Part shown: in pieces, positions 12,308 to 57,490 of the stretch
How positions within the stretch are numbered: position 1 is the stretch's first letter
How the letters are laid out: every line of letters starts with the position of its first letter
Assembly (NCBI RefSeq): GCF_000826685.1
Contig: NZ_JROO01000019.1
Span: 1-64,000, forward strand
Length of the DNA: 64,000 bases
Direction of reading: 5' to 3'
Source: Streptomonospora alba
GTDB lineage: Bacteria; Actinomycetota; Actinomycetes; Streptosporangiales; Streptosporangiaceae
Program-made: the position numbers and the translations under genes
The notes under the pieces: model-generated
Database searches by the model: none
What the model was told of the DNA's origin: nothing
What the model saw: the letters and a program-made list of their open reading frames with translations, nothing else

Positions 12308-13657
12308 ATGAGCCCCGAATCCCCCGATCCCGACCCCGCCCCCGCGGCCGCGCCTTCCGCGGCCGCTCCGGGACCGGCTTCCGCGTCGGCGGGATCGAAA
12401 CCCGCGGGCCCTCCCGCGAGCGCCGCGGCGGGCCGCGGCCCCGGCGCCCGGCCCACCGGGCCGCACGGGTTCTCCACGCCCCTGTGGCGCGCGATCGCCG
12501 TCTTCCGCGCCGCGTCGGTGGTCTATGCCGTCTTCCTGATGGCCCCGCACCTGGACCTGCTGGCGCGGCCGGGGGTCGCATGGGCGGTACTGGTCGCCAT
12601 GGCGGCCTGGACCGCCGCCTCGGCCGTGCTCTACGCCCGCCCGCACCGCCGCGGCAGAGCCCTGCTCGCCACCGACCTCGCGGTCGCCTTCTGCTGCCTG
12701 GCCGCCACAGCGGTGGCGGTCGAACCCGGCTACCTGCGCATGGCCCCGCCGCTGACCACCACCTGGTTCGCGGGCGCGGTGCTGGCGGCTGCGGTGCTGG
12801 GCGGGCGGCGCATCGCCCTGGTCGCGGCACTCGCCCACGGCGTGGTCGACATCGCGATGCGGACCGGGCTGGGCCTGGCCATCACCGCCGCGGTCCCGCG
12901 CGGCGTGGTGCTGCTGCTCCTGGCCGGGTACTCGGTCGGCTACCTGGCGAACTACGCCGCGGTCGCCGAGCGGCGCCTCGCCGAAGCGGTCGAGCTGGAG
13001 GCGCGCACCCGCGAACGCGAGCGCCTGGGCCGTTCGATCCACGACTCCGTGCTGCAGGTGCTGGCGATGGTGCAGCGACGCGGTGCCGAGGCGGGCGGCG
13101 AGGCCGCCGAGCTCGGCTCGCTCGCCGGCGAACAGGAGGCCCGGCTGCGGGCGCTGATCGGCGGACGCCACGGCACGTCGGCGTCCGATCCCGCCGGGGC
13201 GGACGTGGGGGAGGGCGCGGAGGCGAGCAGCGCCCTCGCCGCCGCCCCCACCGCATGGAACGCGGCACCGCCGGCCGCCGACCTGGCCTCCCTGCTCGAC
13301 GCGCACGCCGGAGCCCGCGTGACGGTCTCGGCCCCGGCGACCGAGGTCGCCATGGCGCCCCGGAGGGCCCGCGAGATCGACGCCGCCGTTCGCGAGGCCC
13401 TGGGCAACGTCGAACGCCACTGCCCGCCCGAGGCCCGCGTCTGGCTGCTTCTGGAGCACGAGGGCGAGACGGTCACGGTGACGGTGCGCGACGACGGCCC
13501 CGGCATCGCCCCCGACCGCCTCGCCGAGGCGGCCGCCGAAGGGCGGATGGGCGTCGCCCAGTCCATCCGCGGCCGCATCGCCGATCTCGGAGGAACCACC
13601 GAGATCACCACGGCCCCGGGCCAGGGCACCGAAATCGAGATGCGCGTCCCCGGATGA
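12308..13657 (+). CDS. macS: Sensor histidine kinase, MacS-like (DUF5931 type)
   Basis: A 449-residue sensor from ATG 12308. After a low-complexity Pro/Ala N-terminus, residues about 55-210 form a multi-helix membrane sensor (WRAIAVFRAASVVYAVFLMA onward), followed by the dimerisation helix ERERLGRSIHDSVLQVLAMV with the phospho-acceptor His245 and an HATPase_c domain (REALGNVERH N-box, VRDDGPGIAPDR G-box). This is the MacS arrangement of the Streptomyces MacRS pair controlling morphogenesis and a lipoprotein target. Its expected partner, a MacR-like regulator, is not adjacent here but at 20247-20912. Assignment rests on remembered family features, not an alignment. Confidence 0.78.
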   Translation: MSPESPDPDPAPAAAPSAAAPGPASASAGSKPAGPPASAAAGRGPGARPTGPHGFSTPLWRAIAVFRAASVVYAVFLMAPHLDLLARPGVAWAVLVAMAAWTAASAVLYARPHRRGRALLATDLAVAFCCLAATAVAVEPGYLRMAPPLTTTWFAGAVLAAAVLGGRRIALVAALAHGVVDIAMRTGLGLAITAAVPRGVVLLLLAGYSVGYLANYAAVAERRLAEAVELEARTRERERLGRSIHDSVLQVLAMVQRRGAEAGGEAAELGSLAGEQEARLRALIGGRHGTSASDPAGADVGEGAEASSALAAAPTAWNAAPPAADLASLLDAHAGARVTVSAPATEVAMAPRRAREIDAAVREALGNVERHCPPEARVWLLLEHEGETVTVTVRDDGPGIAPDRLAEAAAEGRMGVAQSIRGRIADLGGTTEITTAPGQGTEIEMRVPG

Positions 13658-13754
13658 GCGGGAGCGCGGGATGCCCGCACCGCTGTCGTCGCTGCACCGT
13701 CGGGCGCAACAACCTGGCGCCGACGGCAGAGGACGGCCGCCGCCGCCCCGCCCG

Positions 13755-14357
13755 CTACCCCAGCGGCGGGCCGTCGCCCGGGACCTCCTGGTAGGAGTAG
13801 CGCTGCTCCTTCCAGGGGTCGGCGCGGTTGTGGTAGCCGCGCTCCTCCCAGAAGCCGCGGCGGTCCGCGGTCAGGTACTCGATCGCGCGGACCCACTTCA
13901 CGCTCTTCCAGCCGTACAGGTGCGGTACCACCAGGCGCAGCGGGTAGCCGTACTCGGGGGCGAGGCGCTCGCCGCCGCGGTGGGTGGCCAGCAGGACGTT
14001 GCGGGCGAGGAAGTCGTCGAGGCGCATGTTGGCGCTGTAGCCGTACTCGGCCCACACCATCACGTGGGTGACCGAGGGGTCGGGAGGGGCCAGCCGCACC
14101 AGGGCCTCGGTGGACACTCCGCTCCAGTGCTCGTCGGGCAGGGTGAACCTGGTCACGCAGTGGAAGTCGGCGACGGTGCTCACCCTCGGCAGGGCGTCGA
14201 ACTCGGGCCAGCTCCACCGGAACTCGCCCAGCGACTCGGTGAATCCGTAGACGCGCAGATCCCACCTGTGCGCACGGAACCGCGGCACGGGGCCGTAGTG
14301 CAGGGCGGGCCGGTCGCGTGGCACGTGCTGCCCCGGCGGCAGCGGCTGATCCGACAA
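13755..14357 (-). CDS. Sulfite oxidase-like molybdopterin oxidoreductase
   Basis: I chose TTG 14357 because AAGGAGAG lies 5 bp upstream; an ATG at 14387 has a weaker site. The 200-residue product is a single oxidoreductase molybdopterin-binding (SUOX-like) domain: VADFHCVTRF supplies the molybdenum-ligating Cys, and GYPLRLVVPHLYGWKSVKWV is the conserved pterin-binding block. No signal peptide or heme domain is present, so it is probably a cytoplasmic YedY-like enzyme lacking the Tat leader. Substrate unknown. It diverges from the aroF leader region with about 110 bp between. Confidence 0.85.
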   Translation of the reverse strand: MSDQPLPPGQHVPRDRPALHYGPVPRFRAHRWDLRVYGFTESLGEFRWSWPEFDALPRVSTVADFHCVTRFTLPDEHWSGVSTEALVRLAPPDPSVTHVMVWAEYGYSANMRLDDFLARNVLLATHRGGERLAPEYGYPLRLVVPHLYGWKSVKWVRAIEYLTADRRGFWEERGYHNRADPWKEQRYSYQEVPGDGPPLG

Positions 14358-14453
14358 TCGCTCTCCTTCGTGCGCCTCGCCCGCCATCCTGCCAGGGGCG
14401 CGAAATCGGCAACCCGACCCCTCCTCTCGTACGGGGCGGCTCGGCGGATGCGT

Positions 14454-14459
14454 TATAGT
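14454..14459 (+). promoter_or_regulatory. Probable -10 element of the aroF attenuator transcript
   Basis: TATAGT lies 7 nt before the leader-peptide ATG at 14467. If it is the -10 box, transcription would start at or within a base of that ATG, making the leader peptide leaderless. No good -35 hexamer is visible. Confidence 0.5.
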
Positions 14460-14466
14460 CGCAGAC

Positions 14467-14541
14467 ATGCAGCAGAGCTTTTGGCGCTTTTATGGCTACC
14501 GGCCCACGGCTAGGACGGTCGCCCGCCAAGCGCTGCGCTGA
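14467..14541 (+). CDS. Aromatic amino-acid leader peptide of the aroF attenuator
   Basis: A 24-residue reading frame MQQSFWRFYGYRPTARTVAR... ends at TGA 14539-14541. Residues 5-11 (FWRFYGY) contain Phe, Trp, Phe, Tyr and Tyr, all three end-products of the shikimate pathway. It is followed 16 nt later by a perfect terminator hairpin and then by the DAHP synthase gene, the first enzyme of that pathway. Its role is sensing charged aromatic tRNAs by ribosome stalling, inferred from position and composition. It has no Shine-Dalgarno sequence, consistent with leaderless initiation. Confidence 0.8.
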   Translation: MQQSFWRFYGYRPTARTVARQALR

Positions 14542-14556
14542 CACGGACGACTTCAG

Positions 14557-14590
14557 GAGCCCCGGGCCGGAAACGGCCCGGGGCTCTTCT
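14557..14590 (+). terminator. Attenuator hairpin upstream of DAHP synthase
   Basis: A perfect 13-bp stem (14557-14569 with 14574-14586) closes a GAAA tetraloop and is followed by TTCT. The 5' arm segment GGGCCGG (14564-14570) can alternatively pair with CCGGCCC (14499-14505) at the end of the aromatic codon run, a plausible antiterminator. Confidence 0.78.
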
Positions 14591-14694
14591 GCTGCCCGGT
14601 CGTATCCGCCGCCCGGCCCCGCTCCCCGTCCATCCGGCAGACAACCTCCACCGCGTCCGGGAACGGACACCACGTGCCGAAGGGACAGCACACA

Positions 14695-15741
14695 ATGGTC
14701 ATCGTCATGGGGCCTGGGGCCACACGTGAACATATCGACGCACTCGTCGACCTCGTCACCAGCGCGGGGGGCGAGGCCTACGTGACCCGCGGCGTGAGCC
14801 GCACGATCATCGGCCTGGTCGGCGACGTGCGCCAGTTCGAGACCCTGGACCTGCGCGCGATGCCCGGCGTCAGCGACGTCTTGCGCATCAGCGTCCCCTA
14901 CAAGCTCGTCAGCAGCGAGAACCAGCCCGGCCGCTCCACGGTCAGCGTCGGCGGCGTGCCCATCGGCGGCGACAACATGACCGTCATCGCCGGCCCCTGT
15001 GCGGTCGAGACCCCCGACCAGACGCTGGAGTCGGCGCACATGGCCCGCGCGGCCGGCGCGTCGCTGCTGCGCGGGGGCGCCTACAAGCCCCGCACCTCCC
15101 CCTACGCCTTCCAGGGCTTGGGCGAGACCGGCCTGAAGATCCTCGCCGACGTGCGCGCCGAGACCGGGCTGCCGATCGTCACCGAGGTGGTCGACGCCGC
15201 GGACGTGGATCTGGTCGCCGGCTACGCCGACATGCTGCAGATCGGCACCCGCAACATGCAGAACTTCGCCCTGCTGCAGGCGGCGGGCGAGGCCGGCCGC
15301 CCCGTGCTCCTGAAGCGCGGGATGAACGCCACCATCGAGGAGTGGCTGATGGCCGCGGAGTACATCGCTCAGCGTGGCAACCTCGACATCGTCCTGTGCG
15401 AGCGCGGGATCCGAACCTTCGAGAAGGCCACCCGCAACACCCTCGACATCAGTGCGGTGCCGGTGGCCCAGAGCCTGTCGCACCTGCCGGTGATCGTGGA
15501 CCCCTCGCACTCGGGCGGCAAGCGCGAACTGGTGCTGCCGCTGTCGCGGTCGGCGATCGCGGTCGGCGCCGACGGTGTCATCGTCGACGTGCACCCCACC
15601 CCCGAGACCGCGCTGTGCGACGGGCCCCAAGCGCTGGTCGGCGAGGACATCCCGCAGCTGGCCGAGGCCGCCGCCACGCTGTCGCCGCTGGTGGGCCGAA
15701 CCCTCACCGCCGCGCCGGAGCCGGTCGGGGCGGGCGTCTAG
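14695..15741 (+). CDS. aroF: 3-deoxy-7-phosphoheptulonate (DAHP) synthase, type I-beta
   Basis: ATG 14695 is preferred (MVIVMGPGAT, with AAGGGA 9 bp upstream); GTG 14674 is an alternative. The 348-residue protein has an N-terminal ferredoxin-like regulatory domain (about residues 1-75) and a TIM barrel with IAGPCAVE, LRGGAYKPRTSPYAFQG, LLKRGMNATIEEW, CERGIRTFE and VDPSHSGGKRE, which hold the PEP, metal and phosphate ligands. It condenses PEP and erythrose-4-phosphate to enter the shikimate pathway. This is the short, archaeal/Bacillus-like type rather than the plant-like AroH of many actinomycetes. Expression is probably set by the upstream attenuator. Confidence 0.93.
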   Translation: MVIVMGPGATREHIDALVDLVTSAGGEAYVTRGVSRTIIGLVGDVRQFETLDLRAMPGVSDVLRISVPYKLVSSENQPGRSTVSVGGVPIGGDNMTVIAGPCAVETPDQTLESAHMARAAGASLLRGGAYKPRTSPYAFQGLGETGLKILADVRAETGLPIVTEVVDAADVDLVAGYADMLQIGTRNMQNFALLQAAGEAGRPVLLKRGMNATIEEWLMAAEYIAQRGNLDIVLCERGIRTFEKATRNTLDISAVPVAQSLSHLPVIVDPSHSGGKRELVLPLSRSAIAVGADGVIVDVHPTPETALCDGPQALVGEDIPQLAEAAATLSPLVGRTLTAAPEPVGAGV

Positions 15742-15765
15742 CGCCGGACGCGCCGGAGGTTGCGA

Positions 15766-15799
15766 GTCCGGCGGGCGCCGCGCACGGTGCCCGCCGGAC
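15766..15799. terminator. Bidirectional hairpin between aroF and thiI
   Basis: A perfect 11-bp stem (15766-15776 with 15789-15799) sits between the convergent stops at 15741 and 15834. Confidence 0.7.
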
Positions 15800-15833
15800 C
15801 GGGGCCCGCAGCGGGGCGGCGGGCCCCGCGGCG

Positions 15834-17108
15834 TCAGACCTTTTCGGGGGCTTCCTCGCCCAGGAAGCTGGGGCGGTGCAGCTTCTTGCCCGTGAGCAGG
15901 TACTCGGCCAGCTCCTCGGCGTCCAGCCGCTTCTCGATCTGGCGCAGGTCGGGGATCTTGGCGGCGGTCTCGGCCTGACGCGGTGTGAGCAGCGTGCAGC
16001 AGTCCTCGTCGGGCAGTTCCGAGATCGCCAGGGTGCCCATGCGCCGCGCCTGGTCCATGATCTCGGTCTTGTCCATGCCGATCAGCGGGCGCAGGATCGG
16101 CAGGTCGACCGCGTCGTCCAGCGCCGTCAGGTTGGTCATGGTCTGGCTGGAGACCTGGCCCAGCGCGTCACCGGTGATCAGCGCCTCTGCGTTGAGGTCG
16201 TCGGCCAGCGCCTCGGCGGTCTTGAGCATGAGCCGCCGCTGGGCGATGACCTGCAGCCGGTCCGCGCCGGAGGTCTTCAGCTGCTGCTGGGCCTTGCCGA
16301 AGGGGACGACGAACAGCCGCGATCCCACCTGGTACCGGTCGAGCTGGCGCACGAGGCTGTAGGCCTTGTAGATGGACTCCGGCCCGGTGAACGGCATGCC
16401 GGAGAAGTGCAGGAAGTCGACCTTCAGACCGCGGCGCATCATCCGGTGCGCGGCCACGGGCGAGTCGATCCCGCCCGACATAAGCACCAGTGCGCGTCCG
16501 CTCATCCCCACGGGCAGGCCGCCCTGGCCGGGGATGCCGTCGGTGAAGACGAAGACCTCGTCCTTGTCGACCTCGATGGAGACCGTGTTCTGCGGGCGCT
16601 TGAGGTTGACCGGCAGGCCGTACGCCTCGACCACCGCCGCGCCCACGTGCCCGGCCAGCTGCGAGGAGGTCAGCGGGAACCGCTTGTCGCGGCGGCGGGC
16701 CCGGACCGCGAAGGAGCCGCTGCGGTCGGCCATCGCCTCGACAGCGGCCCGGGTGACGGTGTCGAGGTCCTTGGGCACGCGGCGCACCAGGTGCACCCAC
16801 ACCACGCCCATGACGTTGCTCATCCGCTCGGCCAGTTCGGCCACCTCGGCGTCGGAGGCGTCGGGCATGCGGACGAAGACGACGCCCGAACCGCGCCGGC
16901 TCAGCTTGATCGGGCTCAGACCGCGCGCCGCCGCGCGGATGTTGTTGTGCAGGCGGCGCTCGAACAGGCTGCGGTTGCTGCCCTTGAGCACGATCTCGCC
17001 GAGCTTCATCAGCACGCACAGCTCGTGCGGTCCGGACGCGGACCGCTCGCGGACGGCGGCCTCGGCCTCGCGCCCTTCGACGGCCTCGGGCTCGGACATG
17101 ACGGCCAT
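15834..17108 (-). CDS. thiI: tRNA 4-thiouridine synthase ThiI
   Basis: The start is placed at ATG 17108 (GGGAG 8 bp upstream); upstream extension is not family-like. The 424-residue protein has a ferredoxin-like/THUMP region (CVLMKLGEIVLKGSNR to about residue 170) and an adenylating PP-loop domain with ALVLMSGGIDSPVAAH (SGGxDS). It lacks the C-terminal rhodanese domain of E. coli ThiI, like Bacillus ThiI. It places sulfur at U8 of tRNA and can supply sulfur for thiamine thiazole. It ends in a CTLLTPRQAET region. The thiamine operon lies 6 kb away. Confidence 0.93.
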   Translation of the reverse strand: MAVMSEPEAVEGREAEAAVRERSASGPHELCVLMKLGEIVLKGSNRSLFERRLHNNIRAAARGLSPIKLSRRGSGVVFVRMPDASDAEVAELAERMSNVMGVVWVHLVRRVPKDLDTVTRAAVEAMADRSGSFAVRARRRDKRFPLTSSQLAGHVGAAVVEAYGLPVNLKRPQNTVSIEVDKDEVFVFTDGIPGQGGLPVGMSGRALVLMSGGIDSPVAAHRMMRRGLKVDFLHFSGMPFTGPESIYKAYSLVRQLDRYQVGSRLFVVPFGKAQQQLKTSGADRLQVIAQRRLMLKTAEALADDLNAEALITGDALGQVSSQTMTNLTALDDAVDLPILRPLIGMDKTEIMDQARRMGTLAISELPDEDCCTLLTPRQAETAAKIPDLRQIEKRLDAEELAEYLLTGKKLHRPSFLGEEAPEKV

Positions 17109-32899: not shown

Positions 32900-33787
32900 G
32901 TGAAAGGGATCATACTGGCGGGCGGATCGGGAACGCGGCTGCACCCGACCACGCTCTCAATCTCGAAGCAGTTGCTCCCCGTCTACAACAAACCGATGAT
33001 CTACTATCCCCTGTCGGTCCTGATGCTTGCCGGAATCCGGGATATCCTTGTTATCTCGACTCCCCGGGACGTTGCGCTGTTCAAGGATCTGCTGGGCGAC
33101 GGGGCGAGACTGGGAATCGATCTCTCATACGCCGAGCAGCCGGAACCCAACGGGCTCGCCGAAGCGTTCGTCATCGGGGCCGACCACATCGGGAACGACA
33201 CGTGCGCGCTCATTCTGGGCGACAACATATTCCACGGACCGGTGTTCTCGTCGGTGCTGCAGGAGAACGCCGAGTGCGTCGACGGGTGTGTGCTCTTCGG
33301 GTATCCGGTCAGCGATCCCGCCCGATACGGAATCGCCGTGCGGGACTCCGACGAACGCCTGGTCGGCTTGGAGGAGAAGCCGGCGGATCCCAAGTCGAAC
33401 TGCGCTGTCACCGGTCTCTACTTCTATGACAGCGAGGTGGTCGACATCGCCCGGGATCTCGTTCCCTCGGAGCGCGGCGAACTGGAGATCACCGACGTGA
33501 ACCGCGTGTACCTCAAGAACGGCAAAGCGCGGCTGGTGGATCTGGGACGGGGATTCGCCTGGCTCGACACGGGCACACACGACGCCCTGCTGCAGGCATG
33601 CACCTACGTCCAGACGATGGAGCAGCGCCAGGGGATACGGATCGCGTGCCTGGAGGAGGTCGCACTGCGGATGGGATTCATCGACGCCGAAGCGTGCTAC
33701 CGGCTGGGCGCCCAGCTGTCGGGAACCGAATACGGCCGCTATGTCATGGACATCGCCGGCGAACACGCTTCGGCCGTCGCACGTTAG
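32900..33787 (+). CDS. rfbA: Glucose-1-phosphate thymidylyltransferase
   Basis: A 295-residue nucleotidyltransferase from GTG 32900. GGSGTRLHPTTLSISKQLLP is the nucleotide-binding signature, followed by YNKPMIYYPLSVLMLAGI, LGDNIFHG and GFAWLDTGTHDAL. It makes dTDP-glucose, the first committed precursor of the deoxysugar. It is followed after 9 bp by the 4,6-dehydratase gene. Base composition is slightly less GC-rich at its start than that of neighbours. A homologue of StrD/DesIII type in this context is almost certain. Confidence 0.95.
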   Translation: MKGIILAGGSGTRLHPTTLSISKQLLPVYNKPMIYYPLSVLMLAGIRDILVISTPRDVALFKDLLGDGARLGIDLSYAEQPEPNGLAEAFVIGADHIGNDTCALILGDNIFHGPVFSSVLQENAECVDGCVLFGYPVSDPARYGIAVRDSDERLVGLEEKPADPKSNCAVTGLYFYDSEVVDIARDLVPSERGELEITDVNRVYLKNGKARLVDLGRGFAWLDTGTHDALLQACTYVQTMEQRQGIRIACLEEVALRMGFIDAEACYRLGAQLSGTEYGRYVMDIAGEHASAVAR

Positions 33788-33796
33788 GGGGCGGCG

Positions 33797-34771
33797 GTGC
33801 GCATCGTGGTCACCGGCGGAGCCGGATTCATCGGATCCCATTTCGTATTGGGCCTGCTGGGCGGGGAGTATCCCGGACTGCCGGCGACGGAGGTGATCGT
33901 CCTCGACAAGGTCACCTATGCCGGCGACCCCCGAGTGCTGGAGGAGGCGGCCGATCCGCGGGTGTCGCTGGTCCGCACCGACATCTGCGACCGGTCGGCG
34001 GTGCTGCGGCTGATGGAGGGGGCCGACGTCGTGGTCCACTTCGCAGCCGAGACCCATGTCGACCGATCCATCTCCGGACCGGGCGAGTTCGTGCGGACCA
34101 ACGTCGCGGGGACGCAGAACCTCCTGCACTGCGCACTCCAGGTGGGCGTGGGGAGATTCGTGCACGTCTCCACCGACGAGGTCTACGGCTCGATCGACCG
34201 GGGCTCCTGGAACGAGGACAGCGCGCTGGAGCCCAACTCCCCCTATTCCGCGTCGAAAGCAGCGTCCGACCTGATGGTGCGCTCCTATCACCGGACCTAC
34301 GGGCTGGACGCCTGCATCACGCGCTGCTCCAACAACTACGGGCCCCGGCAGTTCCCGGAGAAGCTGATCCCCCGGTTCGTCACGACCCTGCTTGAGGGGG
34401 GCCGGGTCCCGCTCTACGGCGACGGCTCCAACGTCCGCGAGTGGCTGCATGTCAGCGACCACTGCCGGGGCGTGGCCCTGGTCGCCGCGCGGGGGCGGGC
34501 GGGGGAGACCTACAACATCGGGGGCGGCACGGAGCTGACCAATCGCGAGTTGACCGAGAGAATCCTGTCCATCATGGGCGTGGACTGGGGCAGTGTGCAG
34601 CAGGTGGCCGACCGCAAGGGCCATGATCAGCGCTATTCCGTGGATCATCAGAAGATCTCCGACGAGCTCGGGTACGAACCGAGGACGAGCCTCGCCGACG
34701 GGCTCAAGGAGGTCGTGCAGTGGTACACGGAGAACCGGGAATGGTGGAAGCCGATACAGGCGCCGGCCTGA
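33797..34771 (+). CDS. rfbB: dTDP-glucose 4,6-dehydratase
   Basis: A 324-residue extended SDR from GTG 33797. It has the NAD loop GGAGFIGSHF, HFAAETHVDRSI, STDEVYGS (active-site Thr-Asp-Glu), the catalytic YSASK and RCSNNYGPRQFPEKLIP. It forms dTDP-4-keto-6-deoxyglucose. With rfbA it forms a two-gene rightward operon, ended by the hairpin at 34817-34859 that separates it from the leftward 2,3-dehydratase operon. Confidence 0.95.
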   Translation: MRIVVTGGAGFIGSHFVLGLLGGEYPGLPATEVIVLDKVTYAGDPRVLEEAADPRVSLVRTDICDRSAVLRLMEGADVVVHFAAETHVDRSISGPGEFVRTNVAGTQNLLHCALQVGVGRFVHVSTDEVYGSIDRGSWNEDSALEPNSPYSASKAASDLMVRSYHRTYGLDACITRCSNNYGPRQFPEKLIPRFVTTLLEGGRVPLYGDGSNVREWLHVSDHCRGVALVAARGRAGETYNIGGGTELTNRELTERILSIMGVDWGSVQQVADRKGHDQRYSVDHQKISDELGYEPRTSLADGLKEVVQWYTENREWWKPIQAPA

Positions 34772-44510: not shown

Positions 44511-44629
44511 TTGTTGCCCCCGCTCGGCGGGCGGCAGGGTCTATTGCCGAGCGCGTTTGTATCTCGTTTGTCGTGCGCTCGCTGGAAGGTGGAGAAGGTG
44601 CAGCAGATCGCGCGTGGCGGTGGCGACTC

Positions 44630-47600
44630 ATGGCTTCGGTAGCGGAGGGCGCGGAGGTAGCCGTCGTCGGCATCTCGTGCAGGATGCCCGGGGCGACCGG
44701 CCCGGAACCGCTGTGGCGGGTGCTGCGGGACGGCGTGGACGCGGTCGGCACGGCCCCGGAGGGACGCTTGCGCGACGGGCGGGAACTGCCCGGGTTCGTC
44801 GGCCGCGGCGGTTTCCTGGACGACGTCGAGGGGTTCGACGCCCCGTTCTTCGGCACCTCCCCCCGCGAGGCCGCGGAGATGGACCCCCACCAGCGGCTCT
44901 CCCTGGAACTGGCCTGGGAGGCGCTGGAGGACCTGGGCACCGACGTGCGGACCCTGCCCGGCACCGGACTCTACATCGGCGCCATGGTCGACGACTACGC
45001 GATCATGCGGGCCGCCGCCCCGGGCGGAGCCGACATCACTCCGCATACGGCCACGGGATCGGCGCGCTCCATGATCGCCAACCGGGTCTCCTTCGCGCTC
45101 GGGCTGCGCGGCCCGAGCATGGTGGTCGACACCGGCCAGTCGTCCTCGCTGGTCGCCGTGCATATGGCGTGCGAGAGCCTGCGGACCGGAGAGAACGAAC
45201 TCGCCCTCGCCGGCGGCGTGCACCTGAACCTCTCCGGCCGGACCGTCGCGAAGATGGGGGCCTTCGGTGCGCTCTCGCCCAGCGGCCGCTGCCATACCTT
45301 CGACGAGCGGGCCGACGGGTTCGTGCGCGGCGAGGGCGGCGGCTTCGTGGTGCTCAAGCCGCTCCACGCCGCCGTCGCCGACGGTGACCGGGTCTACTGC
45401 GTCATCCCCGGCAGCGCTGTCAACAACGACGGCGGCGGTGACAGCCTCACGGCCCCCAGCACGGCTGCGCAGGCGGAGGTCCTGCGGGCCGCGTACCGGC
45501 GTTCGGGGGTGGCGCCGGATTCGGTCCACTACCTTGAGCTGCACGGTACCGGCACGCCGGCGGGCGACCCGGTGGAGGCCGCGGCGCTGGGCGAGGTCCT
45601 GGGAGGCGGCCGCGAACCCCAAGCACCCCTCCGCGTCGGCTCGGTCAAGACCAACATCGGTCACCTCGAAGGCGCTGCGGGCATCGCGGGCCTGCTCAAG
45701 ACCGTGCTGTCGATCCACCACGACGAGCTGCCGCCCAGCCTCAACTTCGCGCGGCCCGGCTCCCGCGTGCCGCTGGAGCGGATGAACCTGCGGGTGCTGA
45801 CGGCCCCGGAGCCCTGGCCGGAGCGGCCCGTGGCGGGTGTTTCGTCCTTCGGCATGGGCGGAACCAACTGCCACGTCGTCCTCACCGGACCTCCCGAGGA
45901 CGCCGCTGCCGAGCCGCAGAGCGCGCACCGGCCCGCCGTCGTGCCGTGGACGGTCTCGGCACACACTCCCCGGGCCCTTCGCGCCCAGGCCGCCCGCCTC
46001 GCCGAGTACGCCGCGGCCGACGGTGCGCCGGCCCCCGCCGACATCGGCTACTCCCTGACACGGCGCACCGGCCTGCCCCACCGGATGGCGGTCTCAGGCC
46101 GGGACCGCGACGAGCTTCTGCGAGGGCTGCGGGCGTTCGCGGACGGCTTGCCGGCTTCCGGCGTCGCCGAGGGGAGGGCCGCGGAGGGAGCCACGGCGGT
46201 GCTCTTCACCGGCCAGGGGGCTCAGCGCCCGGGCATGGGCCGCGAACTGCACGCGCGGTTCGGCGTATTCGCCCAGGAGTTCGACCGGGTCGCCGCGCTT
46301 ATCGACCGGCGACTGGAGCAGCCGCTGGTCGACGTGCTCTGGGCGGAGGCCGGATCGGATCGGGCCGAACTCCTCGACCAGACGCTCTACACCCAGTGCG
46401 CCACCTTCGCCCTGGAGGTCGCCCTCTACCGCCTCTTCGAGCACTGGGGCCTGGCACCGGACTACCTGCTCGGCCACTCCATCGGCGAGCTGGCCGCCGC
46501 GCACGTCGCCGGGGTGCTGAGCCTTGAGGACTCCTGTGAACTCGTGGCCGCCCGCGGGTCGCTGATGCAGGCTCTGCCGCGGACCGGCGCCATGGTCTCC
46601 GTGCAGGCCGCGGAGTCGAGAGTGGCGCCCCTGGTCGCCGCGCGCGCCGGCGCCGTCGACATCGCCGGGGTCAACGGTCCGGCCGCCACTGTCGTCGCGG
46701 GCGAGGAGGGCGTGGTCGAGGAGATCGCCGCGCAGTTGCGGGAGGAGGGGGTCAAGACGCGTCGGCTCCGCGTCAGCCATGCGTTCCACTCGCCCCTGAT
46801 CGAGCCCATGCTGGAGGATTTCCGGCAGGTGGCCGCGGGGTTGACCTATCGGGACCCCGCCGTCCCCGTGGTGTCCAACGTGACGGGCTGCGTCGTGGCG
46901 GCGGGGGAGATGAGCACGGCCGGCTACTGGGTCGAGCACGCCCGCCGCGCGGTGCGCTTCCTCGACGGCGTGCGGACCCTTGAGCACGCGGGCGTCACAC
47001 GCTGCCTGGAGCTGGGGCCCGACGGGGTGCTGACGGCCGCAGCGCGGGAAGCCTACGCATCACCGGCCGCGTTCGTCGCCGGCCTGCGGCGCGACCGCGA
47101 CGAGCCGAGCACCGCCGTCGCCGCGCTCGCGGAGATGCACGTGCACGGCGAGACCGTGGACTGGGAGGCGTTCTTCGGCGGCGGCGCCGTCCGGGTGCCG
47201 CTGCCCCGGTACGCGTTGCAGCGCCGTCCGTACCCGATCGCGCACGCCCCGGCCGACGGCTCCGACGCCGGGCAGGCCGGCGGACCCCGGCCCCCCGCGG
47301 CCGCGGACGAGTCGGCGGGGGAGCCGGACGCGAGCGGGCCGGCTCCGGCCGGGCAGGCCGCCTCCGAACACGCCCGGTCGGCCGGCGCCGACCCGCTGCG
47401 GCTCGTCCGCTCCCACGCCGCCGCACTGCTGGGCTACGACGGTCCGGACGACGTCGATCCGGTGCTGCCCTTCAAAGACCTGGGGATGAACTCGCTCACC
47501 GCGGTGGAGTTCAGAGACCGGCTCGCCCGCGTCACGGGGGCCGACCTGCCCAGCTCACTGGTCTTCGACTATCCGACGCCCTCCGCCCTCGCCGACCGCA

Positions 47601-50600
47601 TCGCCGCCGAGGACGGGGAGGCGGCCCGGCCGGGCACCGGCCGGCCGGCGGGGCCCTCGGCCGAACCGATCGCGATCGTGTCGATGGCCTGCCGCTTTCC
47701 CGGCGGGGCCGACTCGCCCGAGCGGCTGTGGGAGCTGCTGAGCGAAGGGCGGGACGCCGTCGGGGGATTCCCGCAGGACCGGGGATGGGACGTGGCCGCG
47801 CTGCTGGACCCGGCTGCCGGAGGGCCCGGCACCGGCCTCGCCCGCGAGGGCGGCTTCCTGCACGAGGCCACCGCGTTCGACCCGGAGTTCTTCGGTATCT
47901 CGCACCGCGAGGCGGCGTCGATGGAGCCCCAGCAGCGGCTCCTGCTGGAGACCGCCTGGGAGGCCGCCGAACGCGCCGGTATCGTCCCGGATTCGCTGCG
48001 GGGCAGCGAAACGGGCGTGTTCGTAGGCGCCATGCCGCAGAAGTACGGCCCGGCGGAGGAGGAAGCCGGCGAGGACGCCGCCGGCTACCTGCTGACGGGC
48101 ACGACCACGAGCGTGGCATCGGGCAGGATCGCCTATACCCTCGGGCTGGAAGGGCCCGCCCTCTCGGTCGACACGGCCTGCTCGGCCTCCCTCGTCGCGA
48201 TCCACCTGGCCGTGCGTGCGCTCCGCAACGGCGAGTGCGGCCAGGCGCTGGCCGGCGGCGCCACGGTCATGTCCTCCCCCGGCATCTTCGCCGAGTTCAG
48301 CAGGCAGGGAGGGATGTCGCCCAGCGGCCGGTGCAGGGCCTTCTCGGCCGACACCGACGGGACCGGATGGGGCGAGGGAGCGGGCATGCTCTTCCTCGAA
48401 CGCCTCTCCGACGCCCGCCGCCGGGGCCACCGGGTGCTGGCCGTCCTCCGCGGCAGCGCGGTCAACCAGGACGGTGCGAGCAACGGGCTCACGGCCCCCA
48501 GCGGCCCCGCTCAGAAGCGGGTCATCCGCCAAGCGCTGGCGGACGCGCGGCTGGAGGCGTCCGACGTCCAGGCGGTCGAGGCCCACGGGACGGGCACACG
48601 GCTCGGCGACCCAGTGGAGGCCAACGCACTCGCGGCCACATACGGAGCGGGCTCCGACGAGCACCCCGTCTGGCTGGGGTCGCTGAAATCCAACGTCGGC
48701 CACACGCAGGCGGCGGCCGGCGTCGGCGGCGTGATCAAAATGGTGCTGGCCCTGCGCCACCGGATGCTGCCGCAGACCCTGCACGTCAGTGAGCCCACGC
48801 CGCATGTCGATTGGGACGCGTCGCGGCTGCGCCTGCTCACCGAGTCGCGTTCCTGGCCCCGGACCGAGGGGCCGCGCCGGGCGGCCGTGTCGTCCTTCGG
48901 CATCAGCGGCACGAACGCGCACGCGATCCTGGAGGAGCCCCCGGAGGAGCAGGGCGCCGCCGACGCACCGCCCGGCGCGGCCGAGGGCGACAGGCCGGAA
49001 CCGGCGGGACCGCTTGAAGCGGTGCCGATCGTGGTCTCGGCCAAGAGCGAGGGCGCCCTGCGCGCCCAGGCGGGAAGGCTGCGGGAGTTCGTCACCCGAC
49101 GGCAGCCGGACCTCGCGGATCTCGGCGCCTCCCTGGTCTCGGCACGCACCGCCTTCGCGTGCCGGGCGGCCGTGCTGGCCGGTGACACCCGCGAGCTGGC
49201 CGAGGGGCTCTCAGCGCTCGAGCAGGGCCGCGACGCGGCCGAGCGGATGCAGGCGACAGCGCCCACCGAGTCTTCGCGGGTGGCCTTCGTCTTCCCGGGA
49301 CAGGGCTCCCAATGGCAGGGGATGGCCGCCGGCCTGTGGGAGGCCTACCCTGCCTTCGCCGCGGAACTGGAGGCGTGCGCCGAGGCGCTGGGGCCGTTCG
49401 TGGACTGGGACCCCATGGACGTCCTGCTGGACCGCCCGGGCGCCCCGCCGATGTCGCGGGTGGACGTCGCCCAGCCCGTGCTGTTCGCCACGATGGCCTC
49501 CCTGGCCGCCCTGTGGCGCGACCACGGTGTGGAGCCCGCCGCGGTGATCGGGCACTCGCAGGGCGAGGTGGCCGCGGCCTACGTGGCGGGCGGCCTTTCG
49601 CTGGAGGACGCTGCCCGCGTTGTGGCCAGACGCAGCCAGGCGTGGTCCGAGCTGCGGGGGCGGGGCGCCATGCTCGCGGCCTCGCTTTCGCCCGAGGAGG
49701 CCGGAGAGCGGATCGCTCCCTGGGGCGACGCGCTCGCGGTCGCGGCGGTCAACGCTCCCCGGTCGGTCGCGGTCTCGGGATCGCCGGAGGCCGTCGAGGA
49801 GCTCGAGGCCGAGTTGACCGCGCAGGGCGTCATGGCGCGGCGGGTTCCCGAGGTCGACGTCGCCGGCCATTCGCCGCAGGTCGAGGTGCTGCGGGAGCGG
49901 CTGCTGGCCGACCTCGGGCCGGTGTCGCCGCGCGCAGGCGTGATTCCGTTCTACTCCACGGTGACCGGCGGCCTCTTCGATACGGGCGGGCTCGACGCCC
50001 ACTACTGGTATCGGAACCTCCGAGAGCGGGTGCGCTTCCACGAGGGCACCCGCGCGGTGCTGGAGGCGGGAACGGCGGCGCTCGTGGAGACCGCGCCGCA
50101 TCCGGTGCTCGCTTCGGCGCTGCGTGAGACCGCCGAAGAGCACGGTCGGCCGTCGTCCGCACTCGCGACCCTCGCGCGCCGGGACGGCGGCCCTCGCCGC
50201 TTCCTCTCGGCACTCGCCGACGCCCACGTCCACGGCGTCGCCGTCGACTGGGAGCGGGTCTTCGGGCGTAGAGAGCCGGTGGACCTGCCCACCTACCCCT
50301 TCCAGCGGCGGCGCTACTGGCTGCAGGCCCGCCAGGGGCCGGGAGACGTCTCCGCCGCCGGACTCGTCGCCGAGACGCACCCCCTGCTCACCGCCGGCAC
50401 CGTCCTTCCCGATTCCGCGCAGCTGCTGTTCACCGGGCGCCTGTCCGCCGAGACCCACGCGCTGCTGGACGACCACCGGGTCCGGGGCACCGCCGTCGCG
50501 CCCCCGGAGCTCTTCTTGGACCTCGTCCTGCACGTGGGCGGGCATGTGCAGTGCGACGTCGTCGAGGAGCTGACCGTCGAGCACCCCATGGCCCTCCCGG

Positions 50601-53600
50601 ACACGGGTGCGCTCGTCCTGCACGTACTCGTGAGCCCCGAAGAGGACGGCCACCGCACCGTCCGCATGTACTCGCGCTCGGCCGAGTCCCGGTCCGGCGG
50701 CTGGACGCAGCACGCGCGGGCGGTGCTCACCCCCGAGGAGCCGACCGCGCCGGCGGTCGCAGACCAGCCCGCCGGCGGGTCTTCGGAGCCGCCGGACTAC
50801 GCCGGACTCGCCCGCAACGGCCTCGGCCTGGGCCCTGCGTTGCAGACCCTCTCCCGATCCTGGCGCAGCGGCGCCGAGGTGCTCGCTGAGGCGGCCGTCG
50901 GCGACGGCGGCCCGGTCGGCGACGCGGGAAGCGCGTCCTTCACCCTCCACCCCGCGCTGCTGGCGGGCGCGGTGCGCGCGTACCGCAGCGCGGCGGGACC
51001 GGCCGCGATGGCGACGACCTGGCGGCGGGTGGCGGTCTTCCGCACCGGCGCGGAGGGCCTGCACGTGCGCATCACCCCGGCGGGACCGGACGAGGCGTGC
51101 CTCGTCGCATCCGACGCCGAGGGAAGGGCCGTGTTGACCGCGGAGTCGGTCCGCTTCACCGAGCCCGGACCGGAGTGGAGCAGGCCGACCGGGAAGGCGG
51201 CCGCCGACGCGCTGTTCCGCGTCGCCTGGGTGCCGCGCCGCGGCACCCCCGGGGCCGCCGAGGAGCCGGATCCCGAGGTCGTCCGCCACGAACCGCCGGA
51301 GGAGCCCTCGGACCTGGCCGGCGCCGCCCGCACCGCGGTCAGCGCCGTCCTCGAACGGCTCCAGCGGGGCCTGCCGGGGGGAGGCCGGGTCGCCGTCGTG
51401 ACCCGGGGCGCCGTGGTCACCGGCCGCGGAGAGGGTGAAGACGCCGACCCCGCCGGCGCGGCGGTGTGGGGCCTGGTCCGCTCGGCCCGCGCCGAGTACC
51501 CGGACCAGCCGGTGATCGCCGACACCGACGGCTCGCCGGAGTCGGAGGCCGCATTGGCCGCCGCGCTGCGGTCCGGCGAGCCGGAGTTCGCGCTGCGCGA
51601 CGGCGTCGTATACGTGCCACGCCTGGAGCGCGCGGCGGCGGACGCGCAGGCGCCGCCTCCTCCCGGCGACGGGACCGTGCTGATCACCGGTGCTTCGGGA
51701 ACCCTGGGGCGGCGGATCGCTCGCCACGTCGTCGCCGAGCACGGGGTCCGGCGGCTACTGCTGGTCAGCCGGCGGGGCGCGGCGGCCGAGGGCGCCCGGG
51801 AACTGGCCGAGGAACTCGCGGAGGCCGGTGCGCAGGCCCACTGGGCTTCCTGCGATGCGGCCGATCGGGAGCAATTGGTCGCCCTGCTGGCGTCGGTCCC
51901 GGCCGAACACCCGCTCACCGGCGTGATCCACGCCGCCGGAGTACTCGAGGACGCGCTGGTCTCGTCCCTCACCGCCGACCAGGTCGACGCGGTGCTGCGG
52001 CCGAAGGCCGACGCGGCGGCCAACCTGCACGAGCTGACCGCCGAGCTGCCGTTGTCCTGGTTCGTGCTCTACTCCTCGATCATGGCCACCTTCGGCGGTC
52101 CCGGCCAGGCCAACTACGCCGCGGCCAACGCCTTCCTCGACGGCCTCGCCCTGCACCGGCGCAGCCGGGGCCTTCCGGCCGCCTCCCTGGGATGGGGGTA
52201 CTGGGACGAGCGCAGCGGCATGAGCGAGCACCTGAGCGAGGCCGACCTCGCGCGCATCGCCCGCTCCGGCGTCGTCCCGCTCTCCTCGGCGGAGGGTGCG
52301 GATCTGTTCGACGCCGCCCTGGCGGCGCAGGAGGCGCACACCCTGCCGGTCCGGCTCGACCCGGCCACGCTTCGCTCCCAGGCGGCGGACGGTTCGCTGC
52401 CGCCGCTGTTCGCGTCGCTGGCAGGCGGCCGCCGCGCGGCGGCCCCGGCGGTCGCCGGAGCCGGGGATTCGCTGGCCGACCGGCTCCGGGGCATGGACTC
52501 CCGGGATCGGGACACCGCCCTTCTCGACCTCGTCCGCGAACAGGCGGCCGCCGTCGTCGCCAACCCCGACCCCCACTCGATCGGACCCGACAACGCGTTC
52601 AAGGACGCGGGATTCGACTCCCTCACCTCGGTGGAGCTGCGGAACCGGCTGAACGGCAAGACCGGTCTCCACCTGCCGACGACGCTGCTCTTCGACCACC
52701 CCACGCCTGCCGCGGTCGCCCGGCACCTGCGCACCCGCCTGCTGGGAGAGGAGGCCGCCCCCGCTGCGCCGCCCGCTGGCGGAGGCGTCCCCGGCGACGC
52801 CGAGGACCCCGTCGCGATCGTGGCCATGAGCTGTCGGCTTCCGGGCGACGTGCGCAGTCCCGAGGACCTGTGGGCGCTGCTGCTGGAAGAGCGCGACGCC
52901 GTAGGGCCGTTCCCGACCGACCGCGGATGGCCGCCGGACCTCTACGACCCCGATCCGGGCCGCAGCGGGAAGTCGCGGGTGCAATCCGGCGGCTTCGTCT
53001 ACGACGCGCCCGACTTCGACGCCGCGTTCTTCGGGATCTCACCGCGCGAGGCGGCGGCGATGGATCCGCAGCAGCGGCTGCTTCTCGAAGTCTCGTGGGA
53101 GGCGATGGAGCGGGCCGGCATCCCGCCCGGCTCACTGGCCGGGGAGCCGGTCGGCGTCTATGTCGGCACCAACATGCAGGATTACGCCGCCGAGCAGCGG
53201 CAGACACCGCAGGACGCGGAGGGGTACCTGCTCACGGGCCGGTCGCAGAGCGTGGTCTCCGGCCGCGTCGCCTACGTGCTGGGACTGGAGGGCCCGGCCG
53301 TCACCGTGGACACGGCGTGTTCGTCCTCACTGGTCTCGATGCACCTGGCCGCCCAGGCGCTGCGCCAGGGTGAATGCTCACTCGCCCTGGCCGCAGGCGT
53401 GACCCTCATGTCCCGACCGCAGCTGTTCGTCGAGTTCAGCCGCCAGCGCGGGCTGGCCCCGGACGGGCGCTGCAAGGCGTTCTCCGACGCCGCCGACGGC
53501 ACCGGCTGGTCCGAAGGCGCCGGTGTGGTCGTGCTGGAGCGGCTTTCCGACGCGCGCCGCAGCGGTCACCCGGTGATCGGGCTGGTGCGCTCCAGCGCGA

Positions 53601-56600
53601 TCAATCAGGACGGCGCGAGCAACGGCCTGTCGGCGCCGAACGGTCCGGCTCAGCAGCGGGTCATCCGCCAGGCTCTGCAGAGCGCCGACCTGGGTTCGGC
53701 CGATGTCGACGCCGTCGAGGCCCACGGGACGGGGACGGTGCTGGGCGATCCGATCGAGGCGCATGCCCTGCTGGCCACCTACGGCCAGGACCGGGCGCCC
53801 GACCGGCCGCTGCTGGTGGGCGCGCTGAAGAGCGCCATCGGCCACACCCAGGCCGCCGCCGGCGTGTCGGGCGTGATCAAGATGCTCTTGGCGATGCGGG
53901 AGGGTGCGCTGCCCCGGAACCTGCACTGCCGAACGCCCTCCAGCCACGTGGACTGGTCCTCCGGCGCGGTACGGCTCGTGGACGAGCCGCTGCCGTGGCC
54001 GGAGCGGGACGGCGGACCCCGCCGAGCGGGTGTATCCGCGTTCGGCATCAGCGGCACGAACGCGCACGTGATCCTCGAAGCGCCGCCGTCCGTGCACGAC
54101 GGGGCGCCGGACGCCGAAGCGCGGTCCGCCGGCGACGGGGACGAGGACGGAGCAGGCAGGGCCTGCGTACCCGTCGCTGTGTGGCCGTTGTCGGCGCACA
54201 CCGCCTCGGCGCTGCGTGAACAGGCCGATCGGCTGCACAGGCACGTGGCCGCTCGCGAGGAGCTGTGCGCACAGGACGTCGGTTACTCCCTGGCCACCAC
54301 CCGGGCCGCATTCGAACACCGGGCCGCCGCCGTCGGACGCGACCGCGGCGAGCTGCTCGCCTCCCTGCAGGGGATCGCCGCCACGGGCGGCGCGGTGGCC
54401 GGAACCGCGACCGGAGGCACGACCGCCTTCCTGTTCACCGGTCAGGGAGCGCAGCGCCCGGGGATGGGCCGGGAGCTGTACGACCGCTTCCCCGTTTTCG
54501 CCGAGGCCTTCGACGCCGCCTGTGAGGAGTTCGACCGCCATCTCGGCCGGCCGCTCGGCGGCATCGTGTTCGCGGAGGAAGGCACACCCGAGGCCGCCGA
54601 GCTGGACCGCACCGAGTTCGCGCAGCCGGCCCTCTTCGCACTGGAGGCGGCCCTGTACCGGCTGCTGTCCAGTTGGGGCCTCGCTCCCGGCGCGCTGCTC
54701 GGCCACTCGATCGGCGAACTGGTCGCCGCACACGTCGCGGGGGTGTGGTCGCTGCAGGACGCCTGCGCGCTGGTGGCGGCGCGGGGCCGGCTCATGCAGC
54801 GGCTGCCGGCCGAAGGGGCGATGATCGCGGTCGAGGCCGCCGAAGAGGACGTCCGCGCCGCGATCGCAGGTCAGGAGAACGCCGTCTCACTGGCCGCGGT
54901 GAACGGGCCGCGGTCCTGCGTGGTCTCCGGCGACGCCGCCGTCGCCGAGAAGGCCGCCGAGACGCTGGGCGTGAAGGCGAAGCGGCTGCGGGTCAGCCAC
55001 GCGTTCCACTCACCGCATATGGAACCGATGCTCGACGATTTCCGTGCTGTCGCGGAAGGGCTCTCCTACGCCGAGCCGACCGTCCCGGTCGTGTCCAACG
55101 TGACCGGCGACTGGGCTGCGGCTGAGCTGGCCGATCCCGCCTACTGGGTCGCTCAGGCCCGCCGGGCGGTCCGTTTCTACGACGGCCTGCTGGCGCTGCG
55201 CGCCGCCGGGGTGGAGCGGTTCGCCGAGATCGGCCCCGCCGGCGTGCTGACCGCGGCGGTGCGCGGCGCCCTGGAGGACGAGCCTGCGGCTCCGGCCGCC
55301 GTTGCGGTCCTGAACCGCAGCGGGTCGGAGGCGTTGAGCGCCGCGTCCGCGGCGGCCCGGCTGCACACCGCCGGCCAGCCCCTCGACTGGGAGGCCTACT
55401 ACGGCGGGGCGTGCCGCCGCGTCGACCTGCCCACCTACCCTTTCCAGCGCAGGCGGTACTGGATCGACGACGCCGCCCCCGCGGAGTCCGGGCAGGCGCC
55501 GGACGGCGCGGCAGGCGCACCCGAGGATCGGCGGGAGCGGGAATTCTGGCACGCCGTCGAGCGGGAGGACCTCTCCGGTCTGCGTGCGCTCCTGGGGCTG
55601 GCCGAGGACGCACCACCGGAGTCCCTGCTCCCGGCGCTGTCGGCGTGGCGGCGCCGGTCGACGGCGGATTCCTGCGCCTACGGGCTGGCTTGGAGGCCCC
55701 GCACCCTGCGGCCGGGCACCCCGGCGGGGCGGTGGCTGGTCGTGGCCCCGCACGGAGCGGATGAGGAGCTCGACGCGGTTCTCCGGCAGCTGCATCGCGC
55801 CGGTACCGAGGCCGTCGCGGTATCACTGGAGGCCACGGCCTGCGACCGCGCATCGGCGGCAGACACGCTGCGCGCCTGCGTACCCGACGGCGTCGAGAGC
55901 GCCGAAGGGATCATCTCGCTGCTCGGCCTGGAGGAACGCGCCCGCAGCGGCTCCCCCGGCATACCGGCGGGGCCGGCCGCCACCGTGTGCCTCGTGCAAG
56001 CACTCGACGACCTGGGGGCGCCGGGCCGCCTGTGGCTGGTGACCCGCGATGCGGTGGCTGCCGGGCAGGTCGGCGGGCGCATCCGCCCGGACCAGGCCGC
56101 CGTATGGGGGATGGGACGCGTACTCGGGCTCGAACGGCCGGACCGCTTCGGGGGGCTCGTGGACCTCCCCGAGCAGGTCGAAGCCCCGATCGCCGATGCG
56201 TTCGCCGCTGTACTGGCCGGGCAGGACGACGAGGACCAGTTCGCCGTCCGCCCGGAGGGCGTGCTCGTGCCCCGCATCGTCCGCGCCCGGTTTCCCGGCG
56301 GCGACCGGGAGTGGCGAACGGGCGCAACGGCGCTGATCACCGGCGGAAGCGGCGGCATCGCCTCGCACGTCGCCGACTGGCTGGCCGACCGCGGCCCCGA
56401 CCACGTCGTCCTGGCCAGCCGCAGCGGCGGCGAACCGCCCGCGGCCGAGCGGCTGCGCCGGCAGGGCATCCGAGTGACCGCCGCCGCCTGTGACACGGCC
56501 GACCCCGAGGCCCTGAGGCGGCTCGTCGCCGATGTCGAAGCCGACGGTCCGTCCGTGCGCTCGGTGTTCCACGCTGCCGGTACCGTCGCGTTCTCCCCGC

Positions 56601-57490
56601 TGGCGGAGACCGATCCGGCCGAGGTGGCCGAGGTCGCCGCCGGAAAGGTCGCCGGGGCGCGCACCCTGGACGCGGTCTTCGGCGAGCGCGAACTCGACGC
56701 GTTCGTGCTCTTCTCCTCGGTCGCGGGAGTGTGGGGCAGCGGCGGCCAGGGCGCCTACGCCGCGGCCAACGCCTTCCTGGACGGCCTCGCCCTCGACCGG
56801 CGCCGCCGCGGCCTCGCCGCGACCTCCCTGGCGTGGGGGCCCTGGGCGGGCGCCGGCATGAACAGCCGGGAAGGGGTCGAGGAGTACCTGGTCCGGCGCG
56901 GGCTGCGGCCGATGCCGCCCGGCACGGCCCTGGCCGCGCTCGAAGCGGCGCTTGCCGGGGCCGAGCCGTCCGTCGTGGTCGCCGACGTCGACTGGGACCG
57001 CTTCGCCGTGGGCTATGCCGCGGACCGAGTGCGGCCGCTGATCGCCGAGATGCGTCCCGCTGACCCCGGCACGGCCGGCGGCGGCGCCGACAGCGACGGG
57101 AAACCCGCAGCGAGCACGGCCGAGCGGTTGCGGGACCTGCCCGCCGCCGAGCGGGACCGCGAGCTGCTGTCCCTCGTGCGCCGCCAGACGGCGGCCGTCC
57201 TGGGCCACCCCTCGGCCGATGCCGTCGCGCCGGCCAGAGCATTCCACGACGCCGGCTTCGACTCGCTGATGGCCGTCGAACTGCGCACCCGGATCAGCGA
57301 CGAGACCGGCCTGCCGGTAAGCGCGATGGCGGTCTTCGACTACCCGGATCCGCAGGCGCTCGCCGGCCACCTCGCCGACCTGGTGGCAGGAGGGTCCGGC
57401 GCCTCCGAGCCGCCCGTCCAACAGCGCCTGGAGACGTCGACCGCCGACGAGCTCTTCGACTTCATCGACCACGAGCTGGGGTTCTCATGA
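44630..57490 (+). CDS. Modular type I polyketide synthase: loading module (KSQ-AT-ACP) plus modules 1 and 2
   Basis: Read from ATG 44630 (GTG 44573 possible), 4286 residues. Loading module: KSQ with DTGQSSS (Gln170 replaces Cys), AT with GHSIGE (Ser617) and HAFH, hence malonyl-CoA decarboxylated to an acetyl starter, ACP (Ser955). Module 1: KS (Cys1184), AT with GHSQGE (Ser1643) but VAGH instead of YASH, DH with intact HxxxGxxxxP (His1949) but HPALLAG where HPALLDA is expected (Ala2112 replaces Asp), KR with [11 protein letters not shown] and Tyr2496 (B-type), ACP (Ser2664). Module 2: KS (Cys2897), malonyl AT (Ser3360, HAFH), KR lacking LDD (A-type, Tyr4043), ACP (Ser4212), C-terminal docking tail. 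It overlaps the next PKS gene by 4 bp. Confidence 0.95.

Follow-up and report, generated by a model that had tools for sequence, protein, structure and literature searches.

The window analysed here, a stretch of 64,000 nucleotides from Streptomonospora alba (contig NZ_JROO01000019.1), contains an aroF gene on the forward strand (14695-15741), preceded by a likely ribosome-binding site, AAGGGA, at 14680-14685. Pfam assigns the aroF product to type I DAHP synthase with a ferredoxin-like domain (DAHP_synth_1 and DAHP_snth_FXD), in agreement with the original prediction that this gene encodes the first enzyme of the shikimate pathway, and aroF is the presumed target of the elements described in the following, all of which are located on the same strand. 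A -10-like box, TATAGT (14454-14459), is separated by 7 nt from an ATG at 14467, which opens a leader ORF of 24 codons (MQQSFWRFYGYRPTARTVARQALR; 14467-14541, with the TGA stop codon at 14539-14541) that lacks a Shine-Dalgarno-like sequence and is kept in relatives. Codons 5 to 11 of this frame (14479-14499), UUU UGG CGC UUU UAU GGC UAC, encode the cluster Phe5-Trp6-Arg7-Phe8-Tyr9-Gly10-Tyr11. Downstream of the leader ORF, a hairpin of 13 perfect pairs spans positions 14557-14586, its arms GAGCCCCGGGCCG (14557-14569) and CGGCCCGGGGCTC (14574-14586) enclosing a GAAA loop. It is followed by a U-poor tail, TTCTGCTGCC, in which the U tract is weak, and 108 nt separate the hairpin end from aroF. 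The segment GGGCCGG (14564-14570, hereafter segment T), the last G of which is part of the loop, is common to the 5' arm of this putative terminator and to a putative antiterminator, since it is also complementary to CCGGCCC (14499-14505, hereafter segment A) at the end of the aromatic cluster. The frame, the cluster, the hairpin and this alternative pairing were thus found as the original prediction had described them, and the same pairing reads CGGACCC:GGGTCCG in other families.

On the opposite strand, the longest frame of an oxidoreductase-like gene (13755-14468) begins inside the leader; this gene gave weak NCBIfam matches to the MsrP and sulfite dehydrogenase models, and its true start is probably located further in. 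An Rfam scan of window positions 13000-16500 and six further loci returned four matches, all of them under the gathering score. Likewise, no NCBIfam family was matched by six leader peptides, which are very short queries of a kind that HMMER may miss.

The leader locus is a real and conserved element. A DNA pattern encoding FWRFYGY was found in 60 of 200 genomes sampled from the order, among them all 6 that represent the genus of the window, and the reversed pattern that served as a control was absent among the matches listed. Among the 80 named loci that carry a close aroF gene, which are the best 80 of 541, an aromatic leader was present upstream in 64 cases and absent in 14, while too little sequence was available in the remaining 2. 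The frame, the box and the hairpin recur 5' of aroF in relatives. The original prediction had named the absence of frame and hairpin in close relatives as a result that would refute it, and this absence was not observed, both being present upstream of aroF there. The leader sequences vary strongly between groups, as exemplified by the peptides of Nocardiopsis (MQRNFWRFYGYRP...KALR), Actinomadura (VRNVVYFFWFDQPGRLVCQTLR) and Planobispora (MRTAFWFWYGDGPVSRTVRPQMLR), and the overall plan is kept. Gaps inside the alignment of the leader ORFs are mostly multiples of three, the hairpin is conserved between leader and gene, and several relatives have a T-rich tail after it. For closer study, we used a set of 50 leaders that comprised the window and 49 of the 64 leader-bearing loci. 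Six loci (L009, L011, L013, L034, L036, L060) were left out because they are close to kept ones, and nine others, which had been accepted as leaders by inspection, because they are divergent (L016, L019, L025, L064, L065, L075, L076, L078 and, judged by eye only, L080).

A TAnnnT box is located 6-9 nt 5' of the start codon in all of these 50 leaders, and a Shine-Dalgarno-like motif in none of them. The start codon is ATG in 35 leaders and GTG in 15, seven of the start codons (L020, L026, L046, L048, L049, L054, L066) having been shifted manually to an internal position. This combination of box spacing and missing Shine-Dalgarno motif suggests a leaderless transcript and, in the window, the 7-nt distance from box to ATG implies that transcription probably begins at or beside the A of the ATG at 14467.

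Codons for Phe, Trp and Tyr occur together in 43 of the 50 DAHP synthase leaders, and the other 7 contain Phe and Tyr codons only. As a reference for their positions we used the Pro codon inside segment A, which is absent from two of the DAHP synthase leaders and from three of the leaders upstream of chorismate mutase genes that are introduced below. Among the 48 DAHP synthase leaders with this reference, an aromatic codon is found at offsets -8 to -4 in 58, 60, 71, 92 and 92% of cases, respectively, at -3 in 29%, at -2 in 25%, and at -10, -9 and -1 in 2-4%. The 22 chorismate mutase leaders have aromatic codons mainly at offsets -8, -6 and -4 (82, 100 and 91%); offsets -7 and -5 are aromatic in 23 and 9%, respectively. 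The choice of codons is also unusual: UUU makes up 59 of the 99 Phe codons of the leaders versus 2 of 279 in the corresponding aroF genes, and UAU 50 of the 70 Tyr codons versus 4 of 233. In 35 long ORFs of the window that were picked by a script, the corresponding counts are 11 of 461 for UUU and 37 of 329 for UAU, and within the first 14 codons of the chorismate mutase leaders, UUU accounts for 25 of 46 and UAU for 23 of 31. An alternative possible source of this excess is an A/U-rich 5' end that would aid leaderless initiation.

Beyond the scheme of the original prediction, folding and energy comparisons point to two further helices. A putative anti-antiterminator, H1, is formed by GGCUACCG (14494-14501) and CGGUCGCC (14516-14523) with one U-C mismatch, and a putative helper helix, H2, by GGUCGCCCG (14517-14525) and CGGACGACU (14544-14552), the latter being located immediately 3' of the stop codon. 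H2 is nested within the antiterminator pairing of A with T (A:T). The 3' arm of H1 overlaps the 5' arm of H2 and, with this arm shared, the two helices are mutually exclusive. H1 reads GACCAGCC:GGCUGGUC in Actinomadura and, with a bulge, GGCGACGG:CCGUUCGCC in Streptosporangiaceae, and H2 reads CGUUCGCC:GGCGAACG in other leaders. A third candidate, H0, would pair GCAGC at the 5' end (14469-14473) with GCUGC near the end of the ORF (14532-14536).

These pairings were evaluated by swapping arms between leaders, an approach that is free of alignment and was chosen because, by inspection, the register of H1 and H2 changes from clade to clade. In the 50 leaders, the mean energy of each leader's own pairing was lower than that of the best of 5000 permutations for H1 (-14.16 versus -12.60), H2 (-13.89 versus -12.49), the terminator (-30.00 versus -28.14) and, as the weakest case, A:T (-13.48 versus -13.02), where it should be noted that the permutations disregard the relatedness of the sequences. 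Since swaps within clades retain most of the energy, the pairing signal lies largely between clades. When the chorismate mutase leaders were added, H1, H2 and A:T were again below all 5000 permutations in a test that used 70 of the 75 leaders, the other 5 having no Pro codon in the chosen range. The H1 5' arms of the chorismate mutase leaders, however, paired no worse with the 3' arms of DAHP synthase leaders (-15.39) than with their own (-14.90). In a second test, the native codons outpaired 95% of synonymous versions in 32 of the 50 leaders for A:T, in 24 for H2 and in 10 for H1. For the window itself, the corresponding fractions were 0.043 for H2, 0.063 for A:T, which just misses the threshold, and 0.507 for H1, which fails the test. 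The evidence for H0 is weaker: its own energy of -13.83 was only narrowly below the best of 5000 permutations (-13.69), and the synonymous test was passed by 15 of the 50 leaders, with a fraction of 0.057 in the window. H0 may limit re-initiation, and thereby leader translation, and at one locus (L030) the 5' end of the leader has a 10-bp match with the end of the ORF (GCGCAACGUC:GACGUUGCGC). RNAalifold applied to a MAFFT alignment recovered the terminator alone, and not H1, H2 or A:T. Within the terminator there is a 13-pair consensus, four pairs of which have changes on both sides that keep the pairing.

We consider it likely, with a probability of roughly 0.8, that this locus is a ribosome-mediated transcription attenuator acting in cis on aroF, as judged from sequence comparison and modelling. 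In this mechanism, RNA polymerase would start at the leader AUG or directly next to it, and a ribosome would load at the 5' end of the transcript without the help of a Shine-Dalgarno sequence. If Phe-tRNA or Trp-tRNA were scarce, the ribosome would stall on codons 5-8 and hinder H1, thus allowing H2 (14517-14525 with 14544-14552) to form and to bring segment A (14499-14505) to segment T (14564-14570). With T kept from its terminator partner, the polymerase would read into aroF. With plentiful aromatic aminoacyl-tRNAs, on the other hand, the ribosome would reach the stop codon and block H2, and the terminator would form.

The effect of a stalled ribosome was modelled on transcripts cut at the end of segment T, in which a mask reaching from 15 nt upstream to 12 nt downstream of the first A-site base represented the assumed ribosome footprint. 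This model serves only as a proxy for the kinetics. When the full-length transcript of the window was folded at equilibrium, no switch was seen, the terminator winning at every ribosome position, and since equilibrium always favours the terminator, the switch would have to be kinetic. With a ribosome stalled at Phe5 or Trp6 of the window, the minimum-energy fold combines A:T with H2. A similar A:T pairing is also predicted without a ribosome or with a ribosome at the stop codon, but it is less stable. In the 50 DAHP synthase leaders, the mean energy needed to free T was 16.1 kcal/mol with the ribosome at the best aromatic codon, 13.3 at the first and 6.1 at the last, which is mostly Tyr, as compared to 9.7 at the stop codon and 8.3 without a ribosome. 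The chorismate mutase leaders gave 15.3 for the best and 9.6 for the last aromatic codon, 9.5 at the stop codon and 6.2 without a ribosome. The best aromatic codon exceeded the stop codon by at least 2 kcal/mol in 49 of the 50 DAHP synthase leaders and in 24 of the 25 chorismate mutase leaders, and the top position over the whole ORF was aromatic in 37 and 20 of them, respectively. Positions one and two codons before the stop codon averaged 12.2 and 12.1 in the 50 leaders and were exceeded by the best aromatic codon by at least 2 kcal/mol in 37 and 41 leaders, respectively. In the window, the ribosome one codon before the stop codon scores 18.8 kcal/mol, the same as at Trp6. Shuffling the codon order in the 3' half of 12 of the 50 leaders (72 shuffles) lowered the difference between best and stop from 8.6 in the native leaders to 4.1 (sd 3.0). 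The fact that the shuffles remain positive indicates that part of the excess is built into a comparison of the best of several positions with a single one.

These results lend only partial support to the view of the original prediction that the leader senses all three aromatic amino acids. In the window, the energy to free T is 18.7 kcal/mol for a ribosome at Phe5, 18.8 at Trp6 and 15.5 at Phe8, and stalls at these codons are thus predicted to favour the antiterminator. The values for Tyr9 (8.4) and Tyr11 (3.6) are low, and since a ribosome at either of these codons covers CCGGCCC itself, an equal reading of all three amino acids appears doubtful. We give about even odds to a refinement of the attenuator, not exclusive with it, in which mainly Phe and Trp are sensed and the last Tyr codons have a role in structure or spacing rather than in sensing, as would fit the low average of the last aromatic codon across the set. 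This view finds a parallel in the aroF operon of C. glutamicum, which, according to a review (PMC11802643), is unaffected by Tyr availability even though the leader peptide AroR contains Tyr. Conversely, the comparison depends on an assumed ribosome footprint, Tyr is the best position in some leaders (L151, L166, L178, L202, L203), and it is the first aromatic codon in the Actinomadura-type leaders.

The attenuator itself has to be weighed against three other explanations. That the short ORF is translated without any attenuation, the hairpin merely ending or separating transcripts, is improbable in our view. The conservation of the leader as a frame, with alignment gaps mostly in multiples of three, would be expected in this case as well, but it would leave unexplained why A:T and H2 are stronger than permuted pairings and, in many leaders, than synonymous versions, and why the spacing between the aromatic codons and segment A is nearly constant. 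Control at the level of translation, with the structures sequestering the aroF ribosome site and no stop of transcription, would fit the U-poor tail of the window, but we regard it as very unlikely given the 108 nt between the hairpin end and aroF and the T-rich tails of several relatives. It is hardly credible that the elements reflect chance or are a side product of promoter sequences belonging to the divergent oxidoreductase gene, whose ORF as listed starts at 14468 and overlaps the leader start, because the aromatic codons and the pairings are kept across genera despite changed sequences.

The distribution of the predicted attenuator was assessed with an RNA model built from 43 of the 50 leaders. 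Of 296 genomes of the class, 154 are matched by this model at E-values of 0.01 or less, and many of the matches listed extend over the hairpin end only. All 28 genomes of the window's family among those listed are matched, 27 of them strongly; the match in the 28th (G022) is weak and lies at a place (L177) where no leader was seen. The model was also applied to 9 of the 14 genomes in which an aroF copy lacks a leader. Four of these (the genomes of L037, L050, L069 and L072) have a second aroF-like gene with a leader (L237, L236, L234 and L235, respectively). The other five are genomes of Streptomyces, Amycolatopsis and Actinophytocola, four of which have a chorismate mutase leader; at the one match viewed in Amycolatopsis sp. 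A133 (L238), no such leader was found. Outside the order, matches over the full length of the model pointed to chorismate mutase genes in a Streptomyces-type family, which we infer to be the Streptomycetaceae from the named matches and the gene content. Chorismate mutase leaders were present in Streptomyces sp. AP-93, Amycolatopsis sp. CA-128772, Actinophytocola gossypii and A. algeriensis. The identity of the downstream gene was supported by Pfam (CM_2) for three representatives and by a motif for the remainder. Among 25 unique leaders selected by the box and the downstream chorismate mutase motif, Trp is present in 2, versus 43 of the 50 DAHP synthase leaders, counts that are not independent because the sequences are related, and none of six further chorismate mutase leaders (L139, L169, L240, L241, L250, L253) contains Trp. 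Related bacteria thus seem to reuse the device before chorismate mutase, mostly without Trp codons.

Upstream of class II DAHP synthase genes at 25 Streptomyces-type loci, where the orientation was guessed from the open frame, no recurring boxed aromatic leader was found. One locus (L229) has a lone boxed candidate for an aromatic leader, VRDRERRYHHWWQHLERPPRGAAA, 5' of this gene. At five loci (L214, L215, L226, L231, L232), a PKQEQTYTRF-like short frame recurs in the same position; it spans several genera of the Streptomyces-type family and may belong to another gene. Some of the 40 model-match places that were inspected turned out to be threonyl-tRNA synthetase-type leaders or chance hairpins, and were rejected. 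At five loci (L162, L164, L168, L176, L244), an MKRAA..TTTP.SVPAR-like leader and a strong terminator are located 5' of an apparent threonyl-tRNA synthetase gene; this name was given by appearance, a 90-residue fragment of the L162 gene product having matched no Pfam family. In S. lividans, a thrL leader before thrS is described in the accessible part of PMC8079986.

Attenuators of this general kind are known. The trp and pheA attenuators of E. coli respond to one regulatory amino acid, and their leaders have a Shine-Dalgarno sequence. They share with the present leaders a choice between antiterminator and terminator that is governed by ribosome stalling, a mechanism predicted here, but they differ from them in that the latter contain several aromatic residues and no Shine-Dalgarno sequence. 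The aroF gene of C. glutamicum encodes another subtype of DAHP synthase, and its AroR leader is reportedly leaderless. AroR is the closest case: the accessible passages describe a Phe-Tyr-Phe leader upstream of aroF (Neshat et al. 2014), for which stall-dependent attenuation under Phe limitation was reported (PMC4046766, PMC11802643), and the latter source also names the E. coli trp and pheA attenuators. By this description, the leaders studied here resemble AroR as short aromatic leaders upstream of a DAHP synthase gene. Most of them include Trp, which the passages on AroR do not mention, and the same plan also occurs at chorismate mutase. The leader peptides of S. lividans (trpL1, trpL2, leuL1, leuL2, ilvL, metL and thrL, which are described as leaderless, and alaL), as far as presented in the accessible part of PMC8079986, are likewise short and mostly leaderless ORFs with hairpins and a downstream amino-acid gene, and none of the eight listed there belongs to DAHP synthase or chorismate mutase. 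In mycobacteria, leaderless short ORFs that respond to cysteine are attenuators as well (Canestrari et al. 2020, cited in PMC13236596); the likeness, taken from the title, does not extend to the amino acid or the target. The original prediction had described the leader as a compact sensor unlike the classic trp leader, but AroR and the leaderless leaders of S. lividans are precedents for it.

In the open-access literature, we found no description of the three-amino-acid codon set, of this architecture or of its reuse at chorismate mutase, and the words chorismate, DAHP, aromatic and phenylalanine do not occur in the accessible main text of PMC4833913 and PMC2965389. A comparison from 2005, which covered Streptomyces coelicolor, S. 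avermitilis and Thermobifida fusca among others, states in its accessible part that no conserved RNA regulatory structures were found upstream of phenylalanine and tyrosine operons (PMC1262725). The attenuator proposed here would fill this stated gap. If real, it would represent an RNA control point over the supply of aromatic precursors in the Streptosporangiales and in Streptomyces-type bacteria, which are known for antibiotics. As a tentative generalisation, which we rate at somewhat less than an even chance, one leaderless plan may act as an exchangeable sensor of aromatic amino acids and have its codon set matched to the controlled node, with Phe, Trp and Tyr at the DAHP synthase of the Streptosporangiales, and with Phe and Tyr, Trp being mostly absent, at the chorismate mutase of the Streptomyces-type family and the Pseudonocardiaceae. 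The rare UUU and UAU codons would then act as slow, starvation-sensitive stops, and pairing between the start and the end of the ORF would restrict the leader to about one round of translation. A codon content that shifts with the target gene would provide a natural test of leader-codon specificity, and the use of rare codons a clear and testable prediction.

Further downstream in the window, sugar-nucleotide-type ORFs (32900-34771) and very long polyketide synthase-like ORFs (44573-57490 and 57487-62199) were observed and, as judged from their first residues only, the region 32900-62199 is probably a polyketide gene cluster.
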